Assembly (NCBI GenBank): GCA_030431355.1
Contig: JAUIJG010000087.1
Coordinates: 1 to 14,707 of the forward strand
Reading direction: 5' to 3'
Length of the DNA stretch: 14,707 nt
DNA from: a bacterium
Lineage (GTDB): Bacteria; Cyanobacteriota; Vampirovibrionia; Obscuribacterales; Obscuribacteraceae
A model generated the notes under the pieces. The model was not told the origin of the DNA and did no database searches. It saw nothing but the letters and a program-made list of their open reading frames with translations. This document shows, piece after piece, positions 2,333 through 14,392 of this stretch (positions are counted from its first letter, which is position 1; each line of letters begins with the position of its first letter). Both the position numbers and the translations under genes were made by a program.

Positions 2333-4447
2333 ATGACTGAAAATCAAAAGGAGAGAGAAGTTCGTGTAAGGCTTATTGATGCCTGTCCACTTTGTGGCAA
2401 GCCGAGAAGAAGTCGTAGTGGTATCACCGGCACCTTTTACACCTGGCTGGGAATTGGAGGAAAGACTTATTGTCGCTGTTCTAAGAGTAGCAAGGAAGCC
2501 AGTCTAAGGGCTTTGTATCAGAAGAACAAAGAGACTATCCACAAGCAGAAGAGTAAGGAAGCTGAGTCTATTCCCTTGCCTGACCTGGGCGAGGAGTTTG
2601 TGGTGAAAGAGAGTCTTGGACATGGTGGCATGGCTTCTGTCTACAGAGTTAAACGAGTATCTGATGGACAAGAGTTTGCAGCCAAGGTTATGCACGAGAA
2701 GGTTGCAGAAGATCTTCAACTGGTAAAACGATTTAAGCTGGAGGCAAAAGCAGCCGAGAGCCTCGACCATGAAAATCTGATTCCAGTATTTGGACAGGGG
2801 AAGACAGCTGATGGTAGCGAATTACCCTATCTTTTGATGGGGTTGAGCAAGGGACGCACCCTTATGGATAGTATTAAATCCGGTGAGACCATAAGCGTTT
2901 CACGTGCTCTTAAAATCGCTGAGGAGATTGGTGAAGCCCTTATTCATGCCCATGACAAGGGAATCGTTCACCGTGATGTAAAGCCATCGAACATACTTCT
3001 TGAGAGAAGCGTTGATGATCAGGAGCAAGTAAAAGTTGTCGATTTTGGCATAGCCAAAGTAACGCCTATAGAGAATCGTGTAGGTCAGGGACTGACCATG
3101 ACCGGAGAATTCTTCGGCACTCCTGCATACATGAGTCCCGAGCACTGTCTTGGCAAGAGCGTGGATGAGCGTTCGGACATTTACTCCCTTGGTTGTGTTT
3201 TATACGAAATGCTGGCTGGCAGACCGCCCTTCTGGAGTGAGAATCCCATAAAAGTGATCGTCTCCCATGTCAATGATAGCCCTTCTAAGTTTGATGCCGA
3301 GCTTAATGTCAAAGGAGATGTCGAGAAGGTTATTTTGAAAGCTCTTCGGAAAGAGCCGGATGACCGATACCAGAGTATGAGAGAGTTCCTTTCCGATATC
3401 AAGTTGCTCAGATCCGGAAAGAGGGTGAAGGTTAAAGATCTGCCTGTCTCGAAGGAGACCAATACTCTTCTGGACAACATTGTGGTGGTGGCGGCTATGG
3501 TGACGATGCTGGCCCTGGTCGCCTTGCCTGCTCTGATGTTCTTTCCTGATACCTTTGATTCTTTGCGGGAGATAAGAGGTTCACGAAGAGTTCTTCCTGT
3601 CGGTCCCACCTATCGCGAGAGTGTAGCCCGGGCGAGAAAAGCCGGTGGGGGCAAAGTTCCAGGGGACTTTGTCTACAAGATAAAAAATGAATTTGGAGAG
3701 GTGGTATTCTCCGGCGTCGGCAAAGACAAAAGGGCAGCAGCAAGGGCCGCTGTGTCCGGCGCGCTGGCCAAAGGAAAGAGCCTTAGAGGCGTGGCTCTGA
3801 TTGATCTCGACCTGAGTGATATGAAGTTGGTCGGGGTAGATTTTTCGAATGCCCGAATGTTGAATGTGGACTTCTCCGGTAGTGATATGACCCGAGCCAA
3901 TTTCTCCCTAGCGAAAATCGAGAAGAGTAATTTTAGCCGTGCGGTTGCAAGAGAAGCCAATTTTTCCCATTCGGTATTGAAGAAAGTGAAGGCGGAAAAT
4001 ATAAGATTGGAGAGAAGTATTTTTCGTGATAGTGAATTGGAAAGTATGATTTTTGATGGAGCGAACTTCAAAGAAGCTGGCATGGAAAGCGCCACATTAG
4101 TCTCTTGCAGTGGAAAAGGGACTGATTTTGTCGGTGCAAAAATGGATTCTGTTAGAATCCGAGAATGCAATTTGGTCAATTGCAGTTTTAATGCCGCTGA
4201 CATGAATCGCATCCATATTTATGACTCGGATCTTTCGGCTTCGACCCTTATAGGCTGTGTTTTGAGTGATCTTATGACCGACCGCTCAAAATTCAATCAT
4301 TGCATATTTGATAAATCTATCTTCAAGAATGACCGGCAACGTTTTCAGGACTACTCTTTCTACTCTCCATTTAATGGAAATGAGGCAGCTTACGCGAGTT
4401 TTGTGGGCTGTGACGTGCCGGAAGAGGACTTGAGACCAGGAAGGTAG
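2333..4447 (+). CDS. Membrane Ser/Thr protein kinase with zinc-ribbon-like head and long pentapeptide-repeat tail (kinase 2)
   Basis: A 704-residue paralogue of the gene 42 bases upstream, with the same architecture, so probably a tandem duplication and one transcription unit. Cysteines C18/C21 (CPLC) and C47/C49 (CRC) form the head. The kinase domain spans about 88-360: glycine loop GHGGMA (96-101, third glycine replaced by A101), K118, HRDVKPSN (213-220, D215), DFG (237-239), SPE (268-270), R345. A hydrophobic helix lies at about 381-404. A module at about 445-490 matches kinase 1. The tail is a pentapeptide-repeat run whose centre residues fall every five positions from L494 to F664, 35 centres in one register, all F, L, M or I except residues 539, 554, 594 and 649. 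This is about twice the run in kinase 1, so the sensor or scaffold part has diverged faster than the kinase. There is no strong Shine-Dalgarno; GAAAG lies 9 bases before the ATG, and the preceding frame offers no better start. Confidence 0.92.
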   Translation: MTENQKEREVRVRLIDACPLCGKPRRSRSGITGTFYTWLGIGGKTYCRCSKSSKEASLRALYQKNKETIHKQKSKEAESIPLPDLGEEFVVKESLGHGGMASVYRVKRVSDGQEFAAKVMHEKVAEDLQLVKRFKLEAKAAESLDHENLIPVFGQGKTADGSELPYLLMGLSKGRTLMDSIKSGETISVSRALKIAEEIGEALIHAHDKGIVHRDVKPSNILLERSVDDQEQVKVVDFGIAKVTPIENRVGQGLTMTGEFFGTPAYMSPEHCLGKSVDERSDIYSLGCVLYEMLAGRPPFWSENPIKVIVSHVNDSPSKFDAELNVKGDVEKVILKALRKEPDDRYQSMREFLSDIKLLRSGKRVKVKDLPVSKETNTLLDNIVVVAAMVTMLALVALPALMFFPDTFDSLREIRGSRRVLPVGPTYRESVARARKAGGGKVPGDFVYKIKNEFGEVVFSGVGKDKRAAARAAVSGALAKGKSLRGVALIDLDLSDMKLVGVDFSNARMLNVDFSGSDMTRANFSLAKIEKSNFSRAVAREANFSHSVLKKVKAENIRLERSIFRDSELESMIFDGANFKEAGMESATLVSCSGKGTDFVGAKMDSVRIRECNLVNCSFNAADMNRIHIYDSDLSASTLIGCVLSDLMTDRSKFNHCIFDKSIFKNDRQRFQDYSFYSPFNGNEAAYASFVGCDVPEEDLRPGR

Positions 4448-4620: not shown

Positions 4621-4628
4621 TTGTGAGG

Positions 4629-4853
4629 ATGAACAGGAGCGCTCGAAACAAGAAGGGTCAGAGTATGGTTGAGTACGCCATCGGCATAGGTGCTGTGGCT
4701 GCGGTTTGTATGGTTGCGCTAGGCTCTCTTGGCCATATTAGCGGCAAAATGATCAACAAGGTCTGTCATTCTATTAACGCTCCACACCATGCCCATTCGC
4801 CGGATCCCGGAAGAACAATTAGCGCAAGCGCCACTCCCTGGGTACTGGACTAA
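4629..4853 (+). CDS. Flp/Tad-type prepilin-like small membrane protein
   Basis: A 74-residue protein. A short basic leader (RSARNKK) ends in a glycine at residue 10, followed by QSMVEYAIGIGAVAAVCMV. This fits a class III/type IV prepilin cleavage site: G at -1, E at +5 (E15), then a hydrophobic helix of about 20 residues that would serve as both membrane anchor and assembly helix. GQSMVEYA also resembles the start of Flp pilins and TadE-like pseudopilins. The mature protein would be about 64 residues, in the size range of Flp pilins. The C-terminal third is polar and His/Pro/Ser-rich (four histidines at about 47-54) with one cysteine, C44. No prepilin peptidase, ATPase or other tad gene is visible, so it is an orphan here. 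It converges tail to tail with the next gene, the stops being 3 bases apart. A role in a surface filament is inference; a single-pass membrane peptide is the alternative. Confidence 0.7.
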   Translation: MNRSARNKKGQSMVEYAIGIGAVAAVCMVALGSLGHISGKMINKVCHSINAPHHAHSPDPGRTISASATPWVLD

Positions 4854-4862
4854 ATTTTAGTC
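4848..4862. repeat. Palindrome spanning the two convergent stop codons
   Basis: GACTAAA (4848-4854) and TTTAGTC (4856-4862) are exact inverted copies around a single T. The stop codons of the prepilin-like gene (4851-4853) and of the 107-residue gene on the other strand (4857-4859) both lie in it. The stem is AT-rich and weak; any termination role is speculative. Confidence 0.45.
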
Positions 4863-5180
4863 TTTAGCGTCTTCGACAAAAAGCATAGCGGGTCCGGCGT
4901 GCACTACCCGAACTTTAGAACCAAGTTCATAGTGGGCTTCCCTGTCCATGGCTCTGGCAGGCAGTTTTAACTCCCTGGATTCGTCGGCGAAAACTTCACC
5001 TGGTGTGTTTTTGTATATCGGAACTGCCACTTCAAAGGTCTTACCGATGGTGGCTTTGTGATTTTCTATAACTTGCCTGGTGTCAAGTTTCTTGACCATC
5101 TTGTCGCAGAAATCACTGACTTCATTTTTTACTTTGATAGCATTTTTGAAGATATTTTCGATCATTTCCCTATCTTGCAC
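4857..5180 (-). CDS. Small unknown protein in the amidotransferase-like/transglutaminase operon
   Basis: A 107-residue protein I do not recognise. Residues 1-40 are charged and probably helical (IENIFKNAIKVKNEVSDF and onward). From about residue 43 the sequence alternates like a small beta barrel: GKTFEVAVPIY, then LKLPARAM, then LGSKVRVVHAGPAMLFVE. The spacing recalls an OB-fold or the C-terminal domain of NfeD-like proteins, but this is a weak visual match. There is no signal peptide or membrane helix, so it is probably cytoplasmic. It begins 17 bases after the upstream gene stops on the same strand, so it is very likely cotranscribed with the amidotransferase-like/transglutaminase fusion and may assist that enzyme. 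The start is the GTG at 5180-5178, preceded by a purine-rich AGAAGAAAG; an in-frame ATG five codons later (5165-5163) with AGGG close to it is a possible alternative. Confidence 0.7.
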   Translation of the reverse strand: MQDREMIENIFKNAIKVKNEVSDFCDKMVKKLDTRQVIENHKATIGKTFEVAVPIYKNTPGEVFADESRELKLPARAMDREAHYELGSKVRVVHAGPAMLFVEDAKD

Positions 5181-5197
5181 CTTTCTTCTAATTATCT

Positions 5198-7222
5198 TTA
5201 TTCATTCACTATAACTCGTACTGCAACGGTTAATTTTTCCGGTCCGCCGCCTTTGTATATGGTGCCCGATGTTGGTGAAGCGTCCCGGTAGTTTCTTCCA
5301 GCGGCAACCCGAATATGGTCATGGCCCACAAGGCAACCATTGGTAGGGTCAAAGCCAAACCAGCCGCACCATGGTAGATAAAGTTCGGTCCAGGCATGGG
5401 ATGCTTCCGATTGCACCTTGTTTTCGTAGTCCGCTCCCGTGTTGATGTAACCGACTCTGTATCTTGCCGGTATGCCAAGTAATCGAGCCATACAGATGAA
5501 CAAGTTGGCAAAGTCCTGGCAGACACCTTTCCGTTTCGTGAATACTTCAAAGGGGGTAGTCTGGAGATTAGTAGAGCCGCTCACATATTTGTAATCTGAA
5601 AAGATTGTCCTGTTAACTTCAAGAAGAGCTTCAAGAAGATCGAAATCTTCCCGCTTTACGAATCCCATGGCATATTCAGTAAGAGTTCTGAGCTCACTTT
5701 CGGGAAGTTCCGGGGGAAGCAGATAGGGTAACATCATCTGTCTCTGCCAGGGCATCCAGACCAGGGGAACCGTCATTCGTTCGCTGGTGGAGCTGAGAAG
5801 AGGATAGGGCTGCAGTCGTACCTTCGAATAAGTCTTAATCGAGAGCTTTTTATATGTGGTATCGATTTTGACATCCGTGCTGCGGTTTCCGAACACGTCC
5901 TCAAACTCTCTGGTCTCTCCTTCGGGGCTGATCTCCAGCTTGTATTCGAGGAGTTCTTGCTGGAAGTCTTGCACCGGTTTCAGGTGCAGGCGGTGGGTGC
6001 TGTACTCTACGGGGTTAGAGTATTCGTAGCTGGTTTCATGAAAGATTGAAAGAACCCTGGGTTTTATGTTGTCCGGGATGGTCAGTGATTTGACCGGTTC
6101 CCGAACCAGGGCGCTGGTGGAACCGATAACAGGCTCGATTAGAGGAGAGGTGGCATAGGATGTGGTAGCGGAAGCGCTCACATTCTCCAGCTCTTTTAAC
6201 TGGCAAAATTCACCGGTGTGGAAGGAGGCCGAATTTGGGTTGATTGTGTGCTCCAGCTCTTCGGGGACAACCGGTCGACTGCTCGCCGCCTGATTTATGG
6301 TCTGGTTGGCGATGGGAATTTGCTGTTCGAATATTCCGTTCTTTTCGGGCGTGGCTATTATTTCTTGATTTTCGCCTGTTGAGTCGGCCGGGGTAATCCC
6401 CTGGCTGATACTGCTCGTGGTTTGCGGATCGAAGCTGCGATACACAACTTTGCCAAGCTTCGCCGCTATCATCTGGCCCGGTGGAATCTCATTCCATGTT
6501 CCATCAGACATCGGTTTCGAGCAGATTAAAAGCATGGTGCGATTTTGATCAAGGGGATCTCCAAAATCGATCTCCAGGGTGTCGTTATGCAGGATGGTGA
6601 CCGGATGGGGCGGGGTTCTTCGACAGTAATAAAGGGACTCTCCCCTGCCTTTATTGTCACGGTAAGCCACTGTCACATGACCATCGCTGAGAAGAAAGTC
6701 GGAAGGTCCGTACTGATTTAATGTTGAGAAGAGTTTGTGGATATTTTCCCAGCCAGCTTTGTTGAGGGTTCGTGCTCCGCTCTGTCTCAGTTGAGTCAGA
6801 ATCCAGCAGAAGGCATGTTCTGAATCTGTTCTGCCGACAGGTTCGAAAAAGAGGTCTTCTCCCAGGGGCAGCTCGGTAATTGCCTGTCTTGCCAGGTGTC
6901 CGATATGGGCGAATAGCCAGTGTCTACCGGCATATCTGTTTAGGAAAGGCAGTGTATCTTGCTGGGATACTCTCTTTGCCGCTCCCCGGAGTTGGCAGAC
7001 GAATACACTGGAGCGAAATCGGTCCCAGTCCCTGAGAACCCTTCGCATGACTGATTCTTTGGCGGCTCTGGGGTTTTTTATCACAACCCCCGCCGGGTCA
7101 TCGGATGGATACCAGCCAAACCCCCATCCACCCGGCGATTTACTTCCGTCCTCCACTCCGAAAAGAGTTATGGACGGGGATGCCGGGCTATCGAAGGACA
7201 TGCCTAAAATTTCACTGTTCAT
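5198..7222 (-). CDS. Class II glutamine-amidotransferase-like domain fused to a transglutaminase-like domain
   Basis: A 674-residue two-domain protein. Residues 1-265 follow the YafJ-type class II amidotransferase pattern: SEILGMS at the N-terminus (family: CELLGMS), GGWGFGWYP (31-39), R79, LFAHIGHL (103-110), TDSEHAFCW (132-140). Key residues are changed: the position of the catalytic cysteine reads S3 (after N2), HNG is HIG (I107), and the Thr after the Arg is A82. R79 and D133 remain. Residues about 266-385 form a linker rich in Ser, Thr, Gln and Pro. Residues about 387-470 match the beta-rich N-terminal domain of bacterial transglutaminase-like enzymes, and the core has an intact triad: C568 (GVCQDF), H609 (SHAWTE), D625 (FDPTNG). 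So the transglutaminase/peptidase half should be active and the amidotransferase half may not be. It is divergent from the DUF2126 fusion, 93 bases away, and heads an operon with the 107-residue gene. No clear Shine-Dalgarno precedes the ATG. Confidence 0.88.
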   Translation of the reverse strand: MNSEILGMSFDSPASPSITLFGVEDGSKSPGGWGFGWYPSDDPAGVVIKNPRAAKESVMRRVLRDWDRFRSSVFVCQLRGAAKRVSQQDTLPFLNRYAGRHWLFAHIGHLARQAITELPLGEDLFFEPVGRTDSEHAFCWILTQLRQSGARTLNKAGWENIHKLFSTLNQYGPSDFLLSDGHVTVAYRDNKGRGESLYYCRRTPPHPVTILHNDTLEIDFGDPLDQNRTMLLICSKPMSDGTWNEIPPGQMIAAKLGKVVYRSFDPQTTSSISQGITPADSTGENQEIIATPEKNGIFEQQIPIANQTINQAASSRPVVPEELEHTINPNSASFHTGEFCQLKELENVSASATTSYATSPLIEPVIGSTSALVREPVKSLTIPDNIKPRVLSIFHETSYEYSNPVEYSTHRLHLKPVQDFQQELLEYKLEISPEGETREFEDVFGNRSTDVKIDTTYKKLSIKTYSKVRLQPYPLLSSTSERMTVPLVWMPWQRQMMLPYLLPPELPESELRTLTEYAMGFVKREDFDLLEALLEVNRTIFSDYKYVSGSTNLQTTPFEVFTKRKGVCQDFANLFICMARLLGIPARYRVGYINTGADYENKVQSEASHAWTELYLPWCGWFGFDPTNGCLVGHDHIRVAAGRNYRDASPTSGTIYKGGGPEKLTVAVRVIVNE

Positions 7223-7315
7223 TGTTGGATTTGGTTTTTATTAAGGACGCCAAAGCTATATACTCTTATTTCTTACCTCGTAGGGGATAATTTAGCACGC
7301 TCGCCAGTATCGACC
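7223..7315. promoter_or_regulatory. Divergent intergenic region between the two transglutaminase fusions
   Basis: This 93-base gap must hold the start signals of both large genes. A plus-strand TATACT (7259-7264) has a poor -35 (TTTTTA, 7235-7240) 18 bases upstream. The symmetric TATATA at 7257-7262 could serve either strand. Neither gene shows a clear Shine-Dalgarno. Shared regulation is inferred only from the layout. Confidence 0.3.
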
Positions 7316-10300
7316 ATGCAATATCGTATCCAGCACATCACAAGCTACCATTACCCACAGAAGGCAGACCTCGGTCCCCACACCGTGCGCCTCCGCCCTG
7401 CTGTGCATGCCAAGTGCAAGCTGCTCAACTATAGCCTCTCAGTTGAGCCTGATTGTCAGGTGCGGTGGCAGTATGATCCCTGGAACAATCTTATCGCTCG
7501 CCTGGCTTTTCCTGCCGATAAGAAGATTGATGAACTTAAGCTTTGTGTGGATGCCACGGTGGAGGTCAAGCCCACCAATCCTTTTGACTTTTATGTGGAG
7601 AGCTGGTGTGAGACTTTGCCCTTCGATTATCCTGATGCTGTCAAGAAAGAGTTGCTTCCTTTCCTGGAAAAGCCTGTTCTTGGCCCGCTTTTAAGCGAAT
7701 TTATCCACCAGTTTCCCCTGGAAGGTCTGTTGGTCGACTTTCTCGTAAATCTCAACAGCCGAGTATTTGAGCATCTCAAATATGAAGTGAGGGAAGAGCC
7801 GGGTATTCAAACCAGCGAGGAGACCCTGGCTAGAAGAGCAGGAAGTTGCAGGGATACTGCTCAGATAATCATGGATATTCTGAGGTTAAAAGGGCTGGCT
7901 GCCCGTTTTGTCAGTGGCTATCTTCTTCAGGAAGTGGAAGATGAGAGCTTGCAAAAGCCGGAGATGAAACTGGATCTTCATGCCTGGACCGAAGTATATG
8001 TGCCCGGAGCCGGTTGGATCGGTTTGGATGGTACCAGTGGATTGCTCTGTTCAGAAGGTCATATTCCGCTGGCTTGCACGGTAACTCCTGAGCAAGCGGC
8101 CCCTGTTTTTGGTACCGCTAGTGAAGCTGCTGATCGATTTGATTACTCTTCCAATGTCTCCTTAATAGGAGCCGACTTCGACCATGGACAGCCATATTCC
8201 GATGACTCCTATAGAGAGATTCTAAAGTGCGGTGATACGGTAGACGCGCTGCTCGCCAGTCATGATCTGCTTCTTACCAGTGGTGGAGAGCCTACTTTTA
8301 CGGCGATAGAAAACGGTCTCTGTGCCAATGGGAATTCGGATGCTGACTCCGGAATGAGGGTGACCGAGCGTCCCGAGTGGTTTACCGAAGCGCTGGGAGA
8401 ATCCAAATGGTCCAAGTCCATGTCCTTGTTCTCGAAAGTATTCGATCAGTTTGGTGAAGGCCCGTTGCCCATTGTGGGAACAGGAAAACTTTATCCCGGT
8501 GAGAGCATGCCTAGATGGTCTATGACTCTCTTGTGGAGAGTAGATGGAGAGCCGATCTGGTTGAACCGAGATCTGTTGTCCTTCTCCGATCAATTAGATC
8601 AATTGAATCAGTCAGATCAACCCCGCGTGGAGAAACAGTCTGATACTTCAGACGATTCCGGTCGGTTTGTCCAGGCAGAAGAGTTTTTAAAAGAGCTAAG
8701 CAAGAATCTCAATGTGCAACCAAATATAATACCGGGATATGAAGACCCTGTTCAACTGGTTGTCTCGGAAGGTAATTTACCTCTGGAAGAAGAACTTTCT
8801 GAAATTTCCAGTCAGTCTGACCTGGACGATCAGGACGAACGCAAGCGTCTGGCTCGAGTTCTGGACCAGGGGGCCGGTTCTCCTGTTGGTCTATGTCTTC
8901 CCATGGCCAAGCTGGAGGACAAATGGTATTCCCAGGTTTGGAAGTTTAAGCGAGAGCGAATGTTCCTGGTGCCGGGGCAGAGTCCGATGGGCTTGCGTCT
9001 TCCCCTGGACCGCATCAGGTCTGATCTGGAATTTGAATTTGACCGGGATCCCTCCACCGCGTCAGGAGATCTGCCGGGCCGTGGTTCCCAGAGAAGCACC
9101 GAAAGTGGTGATAGAATTTCCAGCACGAAAGCTACGAATAGTCCGGAAGAAAGTCAGGACGATGTTTCAGAAAGCAATCAAGAGAGTATAGAAGAGCGGG
9201 AAGACAACTCGCGCGCGCCGGTCACCGCGCTGTGCGTGGAGAGACGGGGAGGCTTCCTCGGGGTATTCTTACCACCAATGCCTTCGGTGGATGACTTTTT
9301 GGAGTTGATTGAGGCGATTGAAGAAGCAGCGGTAGTAACATCCTGTCGCGTGAGAATAGAAGGTTACGCTCCACCTCCGGACCCCCGTATACGGAGCCTT
9401 AGTCTAACTCCGGATCCCGGTGTTTTGGAAGTTAATATGCCTGTGGCTGAGACCTTGCGCCAATACGCCCGCAACCTGGAGTTGGTGGCGAAGAGTGCGG
9501 AAAATTGCGCCCTTGGTACCGAGAAGTATCAGCTCGATGGTAGAGTCGTCGGCACTGGCGGCGGACATCATATCACTCTTGGTGGACCTACTACTCTGAA
9601 GAGTCCGTTCATCGAGCAACCGCATATTCTGGCTAGCATGGTGCGCTATTTTCAAAACCACCCCAGCCTCTCTTTCTTCTTTACAGGCTTGTTTGTTGGA
9701 CCCCATTCCCAGGCGCCACGTATAGACGAAGCTCGTCTGGAGAGCCTCTATGAGTTGGAGCTGGCTCTCAGCCAATTCCCCGGACCCGGTCAGGAAGCGG
9801 CTCCCTGGTTGACCGACAGGTTGCTTAGAAATATTTTGGTGGATATGACCGGAAACACTCACCGGGCTGAAATTTGTATCGATAAACTCTACAATCCGGA
9901 ATCGCCCACAGGACGGCTTGGCCTGGTCGAGTTGAGAGCTTTCGAAATGCCTCGGCATTATCAGATGGCGGTGGCGCAAGTCCTACTGGTGCGCGCTTTG
10001 ATCTGTCGATTTGTACTTGATCCTTATAGAGAGAAGTTAATCTCCTGGTCAGAGACCTTGCACGACAAGTACATGCTGCCTCATTATTTGATGCAGGATC
10101 TGGATGATGTGCTGAAAGATCTTAGTGAGCATGGAATGCGTTTTAGCAGGGAGTGGTTCTTACCCTTCAGGGAGTTCCGCTTTCCAGTTCTCGGCACTCT
10201 TCATAAAGAAGAGGTTTATCTTGAGTTGAGAGTGGCCCATGAACCCTGGCATGTTCTTTCGGTGGTCGAAGAGGGATCGACTGTAAGCCGCCCGGTAGAC

Positions 10301-10693
10301 TCTTCCATGGAGCGCATTCAAGTCAAGGTTTCCAATCTCAATCCGGAGAGGCAAAAAATCATAGTAAATGGAGTGGAGCTTCCACTTGCCCAGACCAGCG
10401 TGAGCGGTGAGTTTGTGGGTGCGGTCAGATTCAGAGCCTGGCAGCCACCAAATTGTATGCATCCGAATATAGAGGTGCACCATCCGATCGGGGCTTGCGA
10501 GTATCATGTTATCCATCCGGAAGGAAAGCTTTACGAAGAGCCTCCTCTTACCAGTCATGATGCATCTGCCAGGGTAAACCGGCGGTTTGTGGAAGGCAAT
10601 CATACTCCCTGGCCGGTTGAATATATTGCCACCGGTGATAGTGGAATGTTGACTCTCGATTTACGACTGCACCAGAAAGTACATGAGTGCTGA
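7316..10693 (+). CDS. Transglutaminase-like domain fused to DUF2126 putative amidoligase
   Basis: A 1125-residue protein of the COG4196/DUF2126 type. Residues 1-90 are the beta-rich N-terminal domain of bacterial transglutaminase-like enzymes (MQYRIQHITSYHY, then LGPHTVRLRP). The core has an intact Cys-His-Asp triad: C178 (GSCRDTA), H222 (LHAWTEVY), D238 (GLDGTSG). The rest is DUF2126, regarded as an amidoligase related to glutamine synthetase: LTSGGEPTF (320-328), GTGGGHH (746-752), GNTHRAEICID (846-856) and VELRAFEMP (871-879) supply the Glu, His, Asp and Asn residues expected for metal and ATP binding. Two polar segments, about 424-515 and 575-632, look like disordered insertions. The C-terminus is beta-rich. 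No signal peptide, so it is probably cytoplasmic. It is divergent from the amidotransferase-like fusion and convergent with the alpha-E gene, 29 bases apart. The start fits the family N-terminus although no good Shine-Dalgarno precedes it. Product unknown. Confidence 0.93.
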   Translation: MQYRIQHITSYHYPQKADLGPHTVRLRPAVHAKCKLLNYSLSVEPDCQVRWQYDPWNNLIARLAFPADKKIDELKLCVDATVEVKPTNPFDFYVESWCETLPFDYPDAVKKELLPFLEKPVLGPLLSEFIHQFPLEGLLVDFLVNLNSRVFEHLKYEVREEPGIQTSEETLARRAGSCRDTAQIIMDILRLKGLAARFVSGYLLQEVEDESLQKPEMKLDLHAWTEVYVPGAGWIGLDGTSGLLCSEGHIPLACTVTPEQAAPVFGTASEAADRFDYSSNVSLIGADFDHGQPYSDDSYREILKCGDTVDALLASHDLLLTSGGEPTFTAIENGLCANGNSDADSGMRVTERPEWFTEALGESKWSKSMSLFSKVFDQFGEGPLPIVGTGKLYPGESMPRWSMTLLWRVDGEPIWLNRDLLSFSDQLDQLNQSDQPRVEKQSDTSDDSGRFVQAEEFLKELSKNLNVQPNIIPGYEDPVQLVVSEGNLPLEEELSEISSQSDLDDQDERKRLARVLDQGAGSPVGLCLPMAKLEDKWYSQVWKFKRERMFLVPGQSPMGLRLPLDRIRSDLEFEFDRDPSTASGDLPGRGSQRSTESGDRISSTKATNSPEESQDDVSESNQESIEEREDNSRAPVTALCVERRGGFLGVFLPPMPSVDDFLELIEAIEEAAVVTSCRVRIEGYAPPPDPRIRSLSLTPDPGVLEVNMPVAETLRQYARNLELVAKSAENCALGTEKYQLDGRVVGTGGGHHITLGGPTTLKSPFIEQPHILASMVRYFQNHPSLSFFFTGLFVGPHSQAPRIDEARLESLYELELALSQFPGPGQEAAPWLTDRLLRNILVDMTGNTHRAEICIDKLYNPESPTGRLGLVELRAFEMPRHYQMAVAQVLLVRALICRFVLDPYREKLISWSETLHDKYMLPHYLMQDLDDVLKDLSEHGMRFSREWFLPFREFRFPVLGTLHKEEVYLELRVAHEPWHVLSVVEEGSTVSRPVDSSMERIQVKVSNLNPERQKIIVNGVELPLAQTSVSGEFVGAVRFRAWQPPNCMHPNIEVHHPIGACEYHVIHPEGKLYEEPPLTSHDASARVNRRFVEGNHTPWPVEYIATGDSGMLTLDLRLHQKVHEC
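8588..8623 (+). repeat. Degenerate 9-base tandem repeat inside the DUF2126 fusion
   Basis: Four in-frame 9-base units (GATCAATTA, GATCAATTG, AATCAGTCA, GATCAACCC) encode DQL-DQL-NQS-DQP at residues 425-436. They lie at the start of a polar, probably disordered segment and could be a site of slippage-driven length change. Confidence 0.6.
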
Positions 10694-10722
10694 CAATTAG
10701 CCCAGGAAGAACTTTGCTGCTT

Positions 10723-11733
10723 CTATTGAGCCAGAATGCTGCTGGAAGCAGGATCAAGCTCCTCGGGAATCTCTTCAGGAATTTCGGGATCGAAATAGTC
10801 TTTGTGTAGCTGACTGCAAATCTCGGTGGTCGAGTCGACAATATAGGTCAGCTCTTTGTGCAGACTTTTTTCAAGGCTTTCCTGGGTGGTTGTGTGTTTT
10901 AGCTCTTTGACCAGTTTGTTCAGCATCACCATGGATTCAGTCAACTCTTTTTGCTCAGGTGGTCTGATTCTTGCCATTATCCTTGCTGCTCTGTCCAGGC
11001 AGTAGAGAGCTGAGCGGGGAAACTCGGTATCTTTGATGAGAAATTCGAAAACCGACGGTCCGCTTATGCCGGTCTTACTCTTCTTCAAAAAAGCGTCTTG
11101 GGCCGAGCAGGATCTCAGAAGTGCCAACCACTGAGCAATTTCGATGGGGCTCTCCATATTCAATTTGGTAGGACCGATGGAATGGTATTTGAAGTCCAGT
11201 GTTCTTGCGGTCTGACCTGCTCTTTCCAGAAGAAGACCGAGTTGCATGAAATAAAAGGGCGTCTCATGGGACTGGGTATTCAGGCTGATACCCTGGATGG
11301 AGTTGATGTTGTTGATCAGGTACTGGAAAAATCTATCCCTGTCTCTCTTGTACATCCTCTTGCCTTGACCCTGGGAGATCCAGTGCCAGAGGGAATTGAT
11401 CGCCTCCCACATATCCAGACTTATGACTTCACGAATGGTGCGTGCGTTTTCTCTCGCCCAGAAAATGGAATTTTTTACAGCTACAGGATTCTCTTCGTTC
11501 CAGGTCAAGTAGTTTTGAATTAGTTCTTCGTCCTGGCGCGCATCTTCGTCAAATAGCTTTCCAAAACGCTTTCTTTCGCCCATGACTATAACCAGTGGGT
11601 ACCATCGTTCTATCTCAGGCATATTAATGTCTAAAATAAATGACCGATTTACTTGGAGTAACCGGGAGGTGCTCTCCGCTCTTTCTAGTTGGCGGAAGAG
11701 CCAGAAGCATGTTTCTGCTACTCGGGAGATCAT
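10723..11733 (-). CDS. Alpha-E domain protein (DUF403)
   Basis: A 336-residue, all-helical protein of the alpha-E family (COG2307). The N-terminus MISRVAETCFWLFRQLERAE matches the family signature SRVAE...YW..RYLERAE, and a second, similar helix pair repeats it at about 159-180 (FYFMQLGLLLERAGQTART), as expected for this internally duplicated family. Alpha-E proteins have no proven reaction; they travel with circularly permuted ATP-grasp and transglutaminase genes and are thought to work with the ligase, as substrate carrier or partner. Here the gene begins 2 bases after the stop of the ATP-grasp gene, and its GGAGG ribosome site lies within that gene's last codons, 10 bases before the ATG, so translation is probably coupled. 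No membrane segment is seen. The acidic, Pro/Glu-rich C-terminus (about 315-328) looks flexible. Confidence 0.92.
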   Translation of the reverse strand: MISRVAETCFWLFRQLERAESTSRLLQVNRSFILDINMPEIERWYPLVIVMGERKRFGKLFDEDARQDEELIQNYLTWNEENPVAVKNSIFWARENARTIREVISLDMWEAINSLWHWISQGQGKRMYKRDRDRFFQYLINNINSIQGISLNTQSHETPFYFMQLGLLLERAGQTARTLDFKYHSIGPTKLNMESPIEIAQWLALLRSCSAQDAFLKKSKTGISGPSVFEFLIKDTEFPRSALYCLDRAARIMARIRPPEQKELTESMVMLNKLVKELKHTTTQESLEKSLHKELTYIVDSTTEICSQLHKDYFDPEIPEEIPEELDPASSSILAQ

Positions 11734-11735
11734 AG

Positions 11736-13211
11736 TTAGGAATCCTCCAGGATCCAGGTGTCTTTGGTGCCACCACCCTGGCTGGAATTGACCACATAAG
11801 AGTCCTCCACAAGGGCGACTCTGGTGAGACCACCCGGCAGAACTCGAGTGTGCTGGCCGCTGATGATGTAAGGTCTCAGGTCTACACGTCTGGGCGCTGT
11901 GCCGGAGCCGGATCCTGTCCAGGTGGGACAGGTCGAGAGTTCCACCAACGGCTGAGCTATGTAACCTCGGGGGTTGGCTTCAATCTGGGTTTTGAAGCTT
12001 TGAATCTGGGCTTTAGTGGATTTCGGTCCGATCAACATTCCGTAACCACCGGATGCGTCCACCGCTTTTACCACCAGGTCTTTGAGATTCTCTAAGACAA
12101 ACTTTCTGTCTTTTTCTCGATGACAAAGATAGGTGGTGACCTGGGAAATCACCGGTTCTTCCGACAAATAAAAACGAATCATCTCCGGGACATAAGGATA
12201 AATAGCCTTATCGTCGGCAACACCGTTACCGATAGCGTTGGCCAGGGTGACGTTTCCTTCTTTATATGCCTCAAAAATTCCGGGTACTCCCAGGAGGCTT
12301 TTTTTGTTGAAGACCTCGGGATCTATGAAGTCGTCGTCGATGCGTCTGTAGATCACGTGGACCCGCTGGGGTCCGTTAGTGGTTTTCACATACACTATTT
12401 TGTTGCGAACAAAGAGGTCGCTGCCCTGTACAAGCTCGCAGCCCATGCGTCTCGCTAAAAAGCTGTGTTCGAAGTAGGCAGAATTATATGGACCCGGTGT
12501 CAAGACAACTGCTCTAGTCTCCGACTCTGATACGGGAGATAGCTCCGTAAGCGCTCCTCGGAGCCAGTGAGGGTAATCCTCTACTGTTTTAATACGTGCC
12601 CGGGCGAAGATACGAGGAAAGACTCGCTTCATCATGGCACGGTTTTCCAGAACATAGGAAACTCCCGATGGGGTTCTCAGGTTATCCTCTAGTACCACGA
12701 AGTTTCCGTCAGGACCGCGAATCAGATCGATGCCGGCCACATGAACATAAACTCCGCCGACGGGCATGATCCCTTCGGCTTCTTTGAGGTAGCCGCTGGA
12801 GTTTTTTACCAGATGTTCAGGAATCAGTCCTTCTTTCAAGATCTTCTTGTCATGGTAGATGTCTTTCAAAAACATGTTGAGGGCTTGAATTCTTTGAATT
12901 AATCCGCGCTCGCACTTTTGCCATTCTGATCCCGATACCGCCCTTGGTATTAAGTCGAAAGGCATTATCTTCTCCACACCCTGACTGTCGGAGTATACTG
13001 AGAAAGTAATGCCGCCCAGCATAAAAGCTTCGTCCGCTAGCTGTTGCCGGAGCACGAATTCGCTCTCTCCAAACTCGTCCAACAATTTTGTTAGACCTTT
13101 TAGTCCCTGGCGTGGCTTGTTCGCATCCGAGAAATACTCGTCATACGTTCCTTTTATGGGACGGTATGATGAAAGCAAAGGTCTTGTCATATCTGTCTTC
13201 TTGTTGGACAT
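11736..13211 (-). CDS. Circularly permuted ATP-grasp ligase (COG2308 type)
   Basis: A 491-residue protein, the usual length for this family. Diagnostic blocks in order: [20 protein letters not shown] (171-190), [13 protein letters not shown] (286-298), [19 protein letters not shown] (324-342), [17 protein letters not shown] (380-396), [12 protein letters not shown] (416-427), DLRPYI (444-449), GGLTRVA (460-466) and a C-terminal [11 protein letters not shown] (476-486). The ATP-binding lysine and glycine loop (K382, GGYG 388-391) come after the acidic metal-binding blocks, the reverse of ordinary ATP-grasp enzymes, hence the permutation. It is expected to activate a carboxylate with ATP and join it to an amine; the substrate is unknown. 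It is the first gene of a two-gene operon with alpha-E. The start used is the ATG at 13211-13209 with GAG 7 bases upstream; M8 (MTRPLLSSY) is an equally plausible start. Confidence 0.93.
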
Positions 13212-13737: not shown

Positions 13738-13806
13738 TGATATGGGAGTGAAAGTCCTTCGTTTTGCGCTAGTGGCGCGTCTTTTATTGGTTGTCGAGAA
13801 GCTGCT

Positions 13807-13811
13807 GGGAG
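13807..13811 (+). promoter_or_regulatory. Shine-Dalgarno that fixes the 191-residue gene start
   Basis: GGGAG sits 5 bases before the ATG at 13817. The longer in-frame ATG at 13742 has no ribosome site. Confidence 0.6.
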
Positions 13812-13816
13812 AATTC

Positions 13817-14392
13817 ATGGCTGAAGTTAATAAGATTGAGATTCCAAATCAGAGCGGCGAGGTGGTCGCAGAGTTGGTAGTTCCCGAAGAGTGGGAACAG
13901 GGCACCAAGCCCCCCAGGCCAGGCTATCTCTGGATTTCTAAATTTTTCGTCTCACCTAAAGATGAAAGAGTGGGAGTTTGCCTCAGAGATCCTGCCAAGA
14001 AGACCTATCACTACCTTGAAGCTCAGCAGAATCCCTTTCTTGAGCTGCTCAGAAGACCTGCCCATGAGTTGAGCGAAGACGAGTTCCTCAGTGTTCATCT
14101 TATGTTGGAGCAAGTAGGCTGGCCCGGTCGTTTCAAGCGTGATTACGCCAAAACTGTAGAATTTGAGTCGACCAACGTGCTCGAAATCCAGGGACTGTGG
14201 CTCCAGGAGAATATCCGTGCCCGGGGCATAATTGTGGATACCACATTCGATGGTGATAATTATGTCCAGGAAGCCTGGTTTGTTGCTCCTCCTGAAGTGT
14301 TCGACGATTTCGCCGATGAAGCGGACCAGATTTTTGCTTCTCTGCAATGGAGTCAGAGTGCTGTCAAGGAAGCTGAAACAGCCTCCGCCTGA
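13817..14392 (+). CDS. Unknown 191-residue soluble protein
   Basis: I do not recognise this protein. It is acidic, has no membrane helix or cysteine pairs, and mixes strands and helices: a beta-rich start (NKIEIPNQSGEVVAELVVP), WISKFFVSPKDERVGVCLRD (about 44-63), a central helical part, a second beta part (VLEIQGLWLQENIRARGIIV) and YVQEAWFVAPPEVFDDFADEA leading to IFASLQW near the end. The final helix closing on a Trp is reminiscent of PsbP/Mog1-like folds, but that is a visual impression only. It is a monocistronic unit: its own -10 box and leader upstream and a strong terminator downstream. An ATG 75 bases earlier (13742) would add a hydrophobic 25-residue N-terminus; I prefer 13817 for its ribosome site, and a signal-like extension cannot be fully excluded. 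It is divergent from the ATP-grasp operon. Confidence 0.8.
   Translation: MAEVNKIEIPNQSGEVVAELVVPEEWEQGTKPPRPGYLWISKFFVSPKDERVGVCLRDPAKKTYHYLEAQQNPFLELLRRPAHELSEDEFLSVHLMLEQVGWPGRFKRDYAKTVEFESTNVLEIQGLWLQENIRARGIIVDTTFDGDNYVQEAWFVAPPEVFDDFADEADQIFASLQWSQSAVKEAETASA

Follow-up and report, generated by a model that had tools for sequence, protein, structure and literature searches.

The DNA stretch analysed here, called the window, covers positions 1 to 14,707 of contig JAUIJG010000087.1 (assembly GCA_030431355.1, Obscuribacteraceae), and carries at positions 4857..13211 a cluster of five genes, A to E. The cluster is real, and it is a widely distributed variant of a known system, predicted to make or alter peptides, in which a circularly permuted ATP-grasp protein adjoins an alpha-E protein in the company of transglutaminases. 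Its most striking fact lies in protein D, a class-II amidotransferase-like domain fused to a transglutaminase: the catalytic cysteine (Cys) of the amidotransferase domain is absent throughout the family. Judging from sequence, we give about an even chance to the reading that the cluster is a variant of the ATP-grasp/alpha-E/transglutaminase peptide-ligase system in which the Cys-less domain of D would serve as a recognition or docking module.

The observation of the five-gene cluster itself is confirmed. The open reading frames (ORFs) A to E are uninterrupted and, as the preliminary description had stated, form three units; A-B reads leftward, C rightward and D-E leftward. The family assignments of that description for A to D agree with the Pfam profile searches, in which these four of the five proteins far exceed the cut-offs. 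Protein A (491 aa; 11736..13211, minus strand) is a circularly permuted ATP-grasp ligase by family (CP_ATPgrasp_2 PF14403, E 9e-164; E 7e-166 against PDB 3n6x), and it keeps 54/54 columns that are at least 97% identical in 103 relatives. The alpha-E helical protein B (336 aa; 10723..11733, minus strand; Alpha-E PF04168, E 3e-73) likewise keeps 6/6 such columns among 96 relatives, including E170-R171. Thus the circularly permuted ATP-grasp adjoining alpha-E, which marks membership of the ATP-grasp/alpha-E/transglutaminase systems in the broad sense, is present. A and B are separated by 2 bp, C and the end of B by 29 bp, C and the divergent start of D by 93 bp, and D and E by 17 bp. The same whole layout, including E and the right-hand neighbouring gene, is kept in locus L001, the closest relative in the fetched set; hence the cluster looks complete within the window, as had been claimed.

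Protein D (674 aa; 5198..7222, minus strand) consists of the amidotransferase-like domain (residues 3-269; GATase_4, 4e-60), a variable linker and the transglutaminase (Bact_transglu_N, 3e-20; Transglut_core, 5e-22), whose triad C568, H609 and D625 was assigned by motif and is invariant in 40/40 aligned rows. In the predicted model of D (mean predicted local distance difference test score 73.6), residues 3-262 superpose on the amidotransferase 1te5 and residues 385-674 on the transglutaminase-like 3isr. When the model was compared with the GlmS and PurF chains, the match started at their residue 1, which corresponds to residue 3 of the model. The N-terminal nucleophile (Ntn) fold that had been claimed for this domain is supported, and with it D has the fold that marks class-II amidotransferases. 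No Anbu or proteasome structure stood among the 50 matches listed for the model, which says nothing either way. Standalone amidotransferases of the YafJ/1te5 type differ from D in having Cys2, and the 257-residue chain of 1te5, unlike D, has no transglutaminase.

When a profile of 40 D proteins was aligned with 1te5, its first residues stood opposite Met1-Cys2-Glu3. Among 197 D-family sequences aligned to 1te5 (120 listed proteins, the D of 76 loci and that of the window), the nucleophile column held Ser in 128, Thr in 42, Gly in 11, another residue in 5 and a gap in 11; the set is redundant, the D of at least 9 of the 76 loci being equal to a listed protein over the stretch compared. The catalytic Cys was therefore found in 0/186 readable sequences (the 11 gapped rows lie outside this number), and Ser or Thr in 170/186; the count does not include loci L023, L046, L057 and L079. 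As controls, 15/15 standalone homologues, that is all those that the D profile listed in 80 genomes, begin with Met-Cys, and five other class-II-type proteins from D-bearing genomes, EgtC-like, GlmS-like and PurF-like by eye, keep the Cys (the class-II match of L101 was left out of this control count). An active Cys-type amidotransferase was rejected for want of the Cys, and amidotransferase function of the D domain is not supported.

In 33/76 loci the Ser or Thr of the nucleophile column directly follows a possible start codon (ATG, GTG or TTG), and in 10 further loci, L001 (Met-Ser-Ser) among them, such a codon is followed by a Ser or Thr that stands one residue before the column. Together with the predominance of Ser and Thr at the column and the rarity of Anbu alongside D (described below), these arrangements favour a different explanation, namely that the domain is a working Ntn hydrolase in which Ser or Thr replaces the Cys, and that it takes over the role of Anbu; this would be the preliminary idea at its strongest. 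We regard this as unlikely, since 33/76 loci show neither arrangement, 14/76 have Gly, Asn, Arg, His or Ala at the column, P0004 (74% identical) has Asp there, and Anbu and D occur side by side in L047. The window itself speaks against it as well: its Ser3 at the nucleophile column is preceded by Asn2, so that simple Met removal would not free the Ser, and the Asn of its AHNG motif is replaced by Ile. A broader version of this scenario, which we hold to be quite improbable, is that much of the D family went from class-II amidotransferase to Ser/Thr-type Ntn hydrolase fused to a transglutaminase, and so became, independently, a counterpart to Anbu and to proteasome subunits; the window lineage with its Asn2 may have lost this activity as well and may keep the domain for binding only.

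The glutamine pocket of the domain is kept in part. The Gly of AHNG, the Glu of TDSE and the Asp of SDG are each present in 197/197 sequences and the Asp of TDSE in 192/197, while the varying pocket residues are the Asn of AHNG (123/197), presumably the oxyanion hole, and the Arg (140/197). This variation and the general absence of the Cys would fit a functionless relic that is merely carried along with the transglutaminase. Such a relic is, however, hard to reconcile with the conservation of the domain across phyla: over 34 non-sister rows, the mean identity to P0001, itself 99% identical to the window D, was about 48% for the amidotransferase domain versus 12% for the linker and 62% for the transglutaminase, although the rows were taken from best hits, so that the domain and linker figures run high. 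Moreover, S9, D11, G32-W33, H106, G108, E135 and D180-G181 are invariant in 40/40 aligned D sequences. Because the domain is far better conserved than the linker, a retained role is favoured, and we consider a relic rather improbable.

Protein C (1125 aa; 7316..10693, plus strand) joins a transglutaminase-like part (Bact_transglu_N and Transglut_core) to a DUF2126 amidoligase domain (PF09899, E 3e-282). Its transglutaminase triad C178, H222 and D238 was assigned by motif; among the transglutaminase-DUF2126 ORFs examined, 55/55 contain both the Cys motif and the His motif. The cluster hence contains by motif two Cys-His-Asp transglutaminase domains, in C and in D, of predicted activity. The DUF2126 domain of C is full-length, yet it differs at 8/149 columns that are near-invariant in 48 relatives. 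L001 shares four of these eight deviating residues exactly, and at a further two columns it also deviates, with another residue. At residues 555, 797, 982, 983 and 1007 both the window and L001 depart, where 47/47 other DUF2126 domains keep D, T, G, E and G, respectively. In view of these departures, the C protein of this clade may be inactive as a ligase.

Under the docking-module reading, A and C would be ATP-dependent ligases that form amide bonds on peptides or proteins, and the transglutaminase of D would cut or transamidate glutamine or gamma-glutamyl-type bonds. The amidotransferase domain of D, having kept part of its glutamine pocket, would not hydrolyse glutamine; it would instead recognise or dock the substrate for the adjoining transglutaminase. 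E would be a clade-specific accessory, and the whole pathway would belong to nitrogen-limited metabolism.

The D-type cluster is by no means confined to the window. A protein search with D gave at least 1371 relatives among the 7996 candidates sharing most words; 120 were listed, and all three domain models were found in 119/120 of them; the remaining one, P0011, is a partial protein. Scanning genome contigs gave 93 D relatives, from which 80 loci were kept. They come from Myxococcota, Planctomycetota, Nitrospinota, alpha-, beta- and gammaproteobacteria, Melainabacteria, Spirochaetales, Wallbacteria, Eremiobacterota and others. By profile, A and C occur together in 40 of the 80 loci, A alone in 13, C alone in 15 and neither in 12, many of the contigs being short. 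When only the 44 loci with at least 7 kb on both sides were considered, the corresponding numbers were 27, 5, 7 and 5, so that 39/44 hold A or C. D is therefore linked to ATP-grasp and DUF2126 genes in relatives, and the linkage on which the preliminary description depended stands. Among 77 genomes of the class to which G001 (the genome of L001) belongs, 4 had the full-length fusion and 8 had alpha-E. Kiloniella laminariae DSM 19542 (L066) has the fusion together with ATP-grasp, alpha-E and DUF2126 genes, and so offers a named strain in which the cluster can be studied. No description of an amidotransferase-transglutaminase fusion was recognised in the literature searched, most subscription papers and the 2009 paper of Iyer et al. 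lying outside that search.

Two further layouts were observed among the loci. L127-L135 and L144 show a third layout, with the ATP-grasp fused to alpha-E, mostly beside a separate ATP-grasp/alpha-E pair and a transglutaminase-DUF2126 gene. In L075-L078, a DUF2126 ORF comes after D; neither a transglutaminase part in this ORF nor an ATP-grasp or alpha-E in the locus was detected.

The relation of D to Anbu was assessed with a profile built from four proteins (A2), because PF00227 is a poor Anbu detector: it gave the L047 Anbu 22.2 bits against a cut-off of 22.4 and missed the Anbu of G014. Across the window, which alone represented the host genome in this search, the Anbu profile had no match, in line with the claim that the cluster contains no Anbu. 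Nor did the profile find any Anbu in the 77 genomes of the G001 class. Such an empty result shows nothing by itself, but the profile was positive in other genomes; within this scope, the rest of the host genome lying outside the search, no Anbu that co-varies with the cluster from elsewhere was seen. Of the D-bearing genomes, 9/80 (4/40 and 5/40) have Anbu. In the phylum of G040, where 83/150 genomes have alpha-E, 80 of these were searched (G186, G187 and G189 were left out), and without G040, which had been chosen for having D, 49/79 have Anbu and 0/79 the full-length fusion. This strong contrast has a Fisher p of 1e-11; it does not count as an independent test, the phyla sampled being different.

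In five of the nine co-occurrences, Anbu lies next to an ATP-grasp and alpha-E of its own (L091, L092, L094, L166 and L167). In two it lies beside a transglutaminase-DUF2126 gene (L168 and L047, in the latter adjoining the D cluster), and no partner was detected in the remaining two, L093 (with L170-L171) and L169, the latter close to the end of its contig. These nine genomes rule out that D strictly replaces Anbu. The preliminary description had D filling the Anbu slot; the part of this idea that holds is that D-type and Anbu-type clusters are largely alternatives, which is supported, whereas a slot is too strict in view of the Anbu that adjoins a D-type cluster in L047. A quick tree of 104 ATP-grasp proteins grouped them by partner type, with 9 changes over four labels versus a shuffled mean of 47.8. 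One set of 22 rows, without D-linked rows, held 21/23 Anbu-linked rows. The 50 D-linked rows were split evenly, 25 each, between two further sets of 26 and 27 rows, and L094, an Anbu-linked row, fell inside a D set. Some fused rows of this tree are long-branched, its support values are Shimodaira-Hasegawa-like approximate likelihood ratios only, and L047 was labelled D-type by hand despite its adjoining Anbu.

A link to nitrogen is suggested by both neighbouring genes and published work. Clustering of the ORFs near D brought out a glutaminase (PF04960; four of the eight loci checked by Pfam) beside D in 8/80 loci, versus 0/45 loci without D, and the link is suggestive. Two copies in one frame lie directly behind D in the Planctomycetota loci L003, L009, L045 and L048 (about 11.8-13.8 kb), and two domains in one frame lie beyond C in L006 (15.3-17.4 kb). 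Single glutaminases were found in L026, where D and A flank the gene, in L024, where it comes after B, and in L041, where it comes after D and is in two frames. Glutaminase was the one kept of five ORF groups present in at least 6 D loci; of the others, judged by eye, one is GAF/regulator-like (median 6.5 kb), one a kinase (3.4 kb) and one more lies at 3.1 kb, while the last is antisense to alpha-E in GC-rich DNA. In Burkholderia cenocepacia, according to excerpts of PMC5491218, a four-gene cluster of DUF404/407, DUF403 and two transglutaminase-like genes is NtrC/sigma54-dependent, with values of -6.0 to -9.4 in the ntrC mutant, which we take as fold changes. Excerpts of two other papers state that Anbu is highly expressed under nitrogen starvation (PMC6376114) and that these domains are associated with urea-metabolism domains in marine metagenomes (PMC3597751). 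The related Burkholderia cluster and the glutaminase that recurs beside some D-type clusters are our reasons for placing the pathway within nitrogen-limited metabolism.

The same observations, namely the NtrC-dependence of the related cluster, the glutaminase neighbours and the urea-metabolism association, would also agree with a mainly catabolic system for nitrogen scavenging, in which the transglutaminases are peptidases or deamidases, the ligases recycle the products and no tag is made. We find this not very likely, as two ATP-dependent ligase types would seem costly for pure catabolism and no nitrogen-control site was found at the window promoters.

Several points weigh against the docking-module reading and its nitrogen setting. 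The Ser or Thr of the nucleophile column could mean a changed nucleophile and not a dead site, and Met removal could expose it in the 33 loci mentioned above, plus the residue before it in the 10 more. The glutaminase is absent from the window, and five of its eight loci are Planctomycetota; its Fisher p is 0.05, uncorrected for kinship, and the loci without D are often shorter. At the D/C and A promoters no nitrogen-control site was seen, the sole GTAN8TAC match lying at 4663, which is at chance level. The D-linked ATP-grasps do not form one clade in the tree, the ligase of the window/L001 clade may be changed or inactive, and both the product and the binding role of the D domain are predictions from sequence.

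Three known systems can be compared with the window. In 2009, Iyer et al. reportedly predicted a peptide-tagging system with two circularly permuted enzymes, one an ATP-grasp and the other a glutamine-synthetase-like ligase, and we take DUF2126 to be the latter. If so, A, B and DUF2126 are common to both, while the Ntn-fold member in the window is the Cys-less amidotransferase-type domain and not Anbu. The Anbu operon, with its ATP-grasp, alpha-E, transglutaminase and Anbu genes (excerpts of PMC5666114 and PMC6376114), resembles the window in the families of A and B, in the transglutaminase superfamily and in its compactness; the window differs in lacking Anbu, in having DUF2126 and in the fusion of a transglutaminase to an amidotransferase-fold domain. 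One study detected no peptidase or amidase activity of the Anbu proteins that it tested, and the only activity given for the Yersinia bercovieri relative is that it releases orthophosphate from ATP (both from excerpts of PMC6376114). The Burkholderia cenocepacia genes I35_5080-5083 share with the window DUF404/407, DUF403, one transglutaminase-like gene and one large transglutaminase-like gene, and the gene descriptions excerpted from PMC5491218, by which they are known, name no amidotransferase domain. The widespread D-type version, mostly without Anbu, shows which parts of the Anbu system are dispensable, and the joining of a Cys-less amidotransferase fold to a transglutaminase suggests that the substrate involves glutamine or gamma-glutamyl chemistry.

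The smallest protein, E (107 aa; 4857..5180, minus strand), has a predicted N-terminal helix followed by an NfeD-like oligonucleotide/oligosaccharide-binding (OB) fold. It remains the small protein of no assigned family that had been described: no Pfam family scored above the cut-off. In predicted fold, residues 40-106 are like the NfeD-type OB domains 3cp0, 3wwv and 2k14, from which E differs in having no Pfam NfeD match at E 0.1. E was found in four proteins only.

The 93-bp divergent region between D and C (7223..7315, no strand assigned) presumably holds both promoters, as judged from its geometry; a consensus scan listed no promoter-like site inside it. No RNA family reached the gathering score in the window. 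As for the flanking genes, the left-hand prepilin-like gene of the preliminary description is a Flp-like ORF, KKGQSMVEYAIGIGAVAAVC (4623-4853, plus strand), whose Flp_Fap match (E 0.0057) is below the cut-off. The right-hand gene, described there as 191 residues long, has 216 aa from its first ATG (13742-14392, plus strand). It has a weak, sub-threshold TraI_2_C match; its L001 counterpart is 76% identical, and in both the window and L001 the gene is divergent from A. Further to the left, the ORFs at 545-2290 and 2333-4447 (plus strand) encode two Ser/Thr kinases in tandem, with C-terminal pentapeptide repeats, and an ORF beside E in L001 is 29% identical to the second of these kinases.

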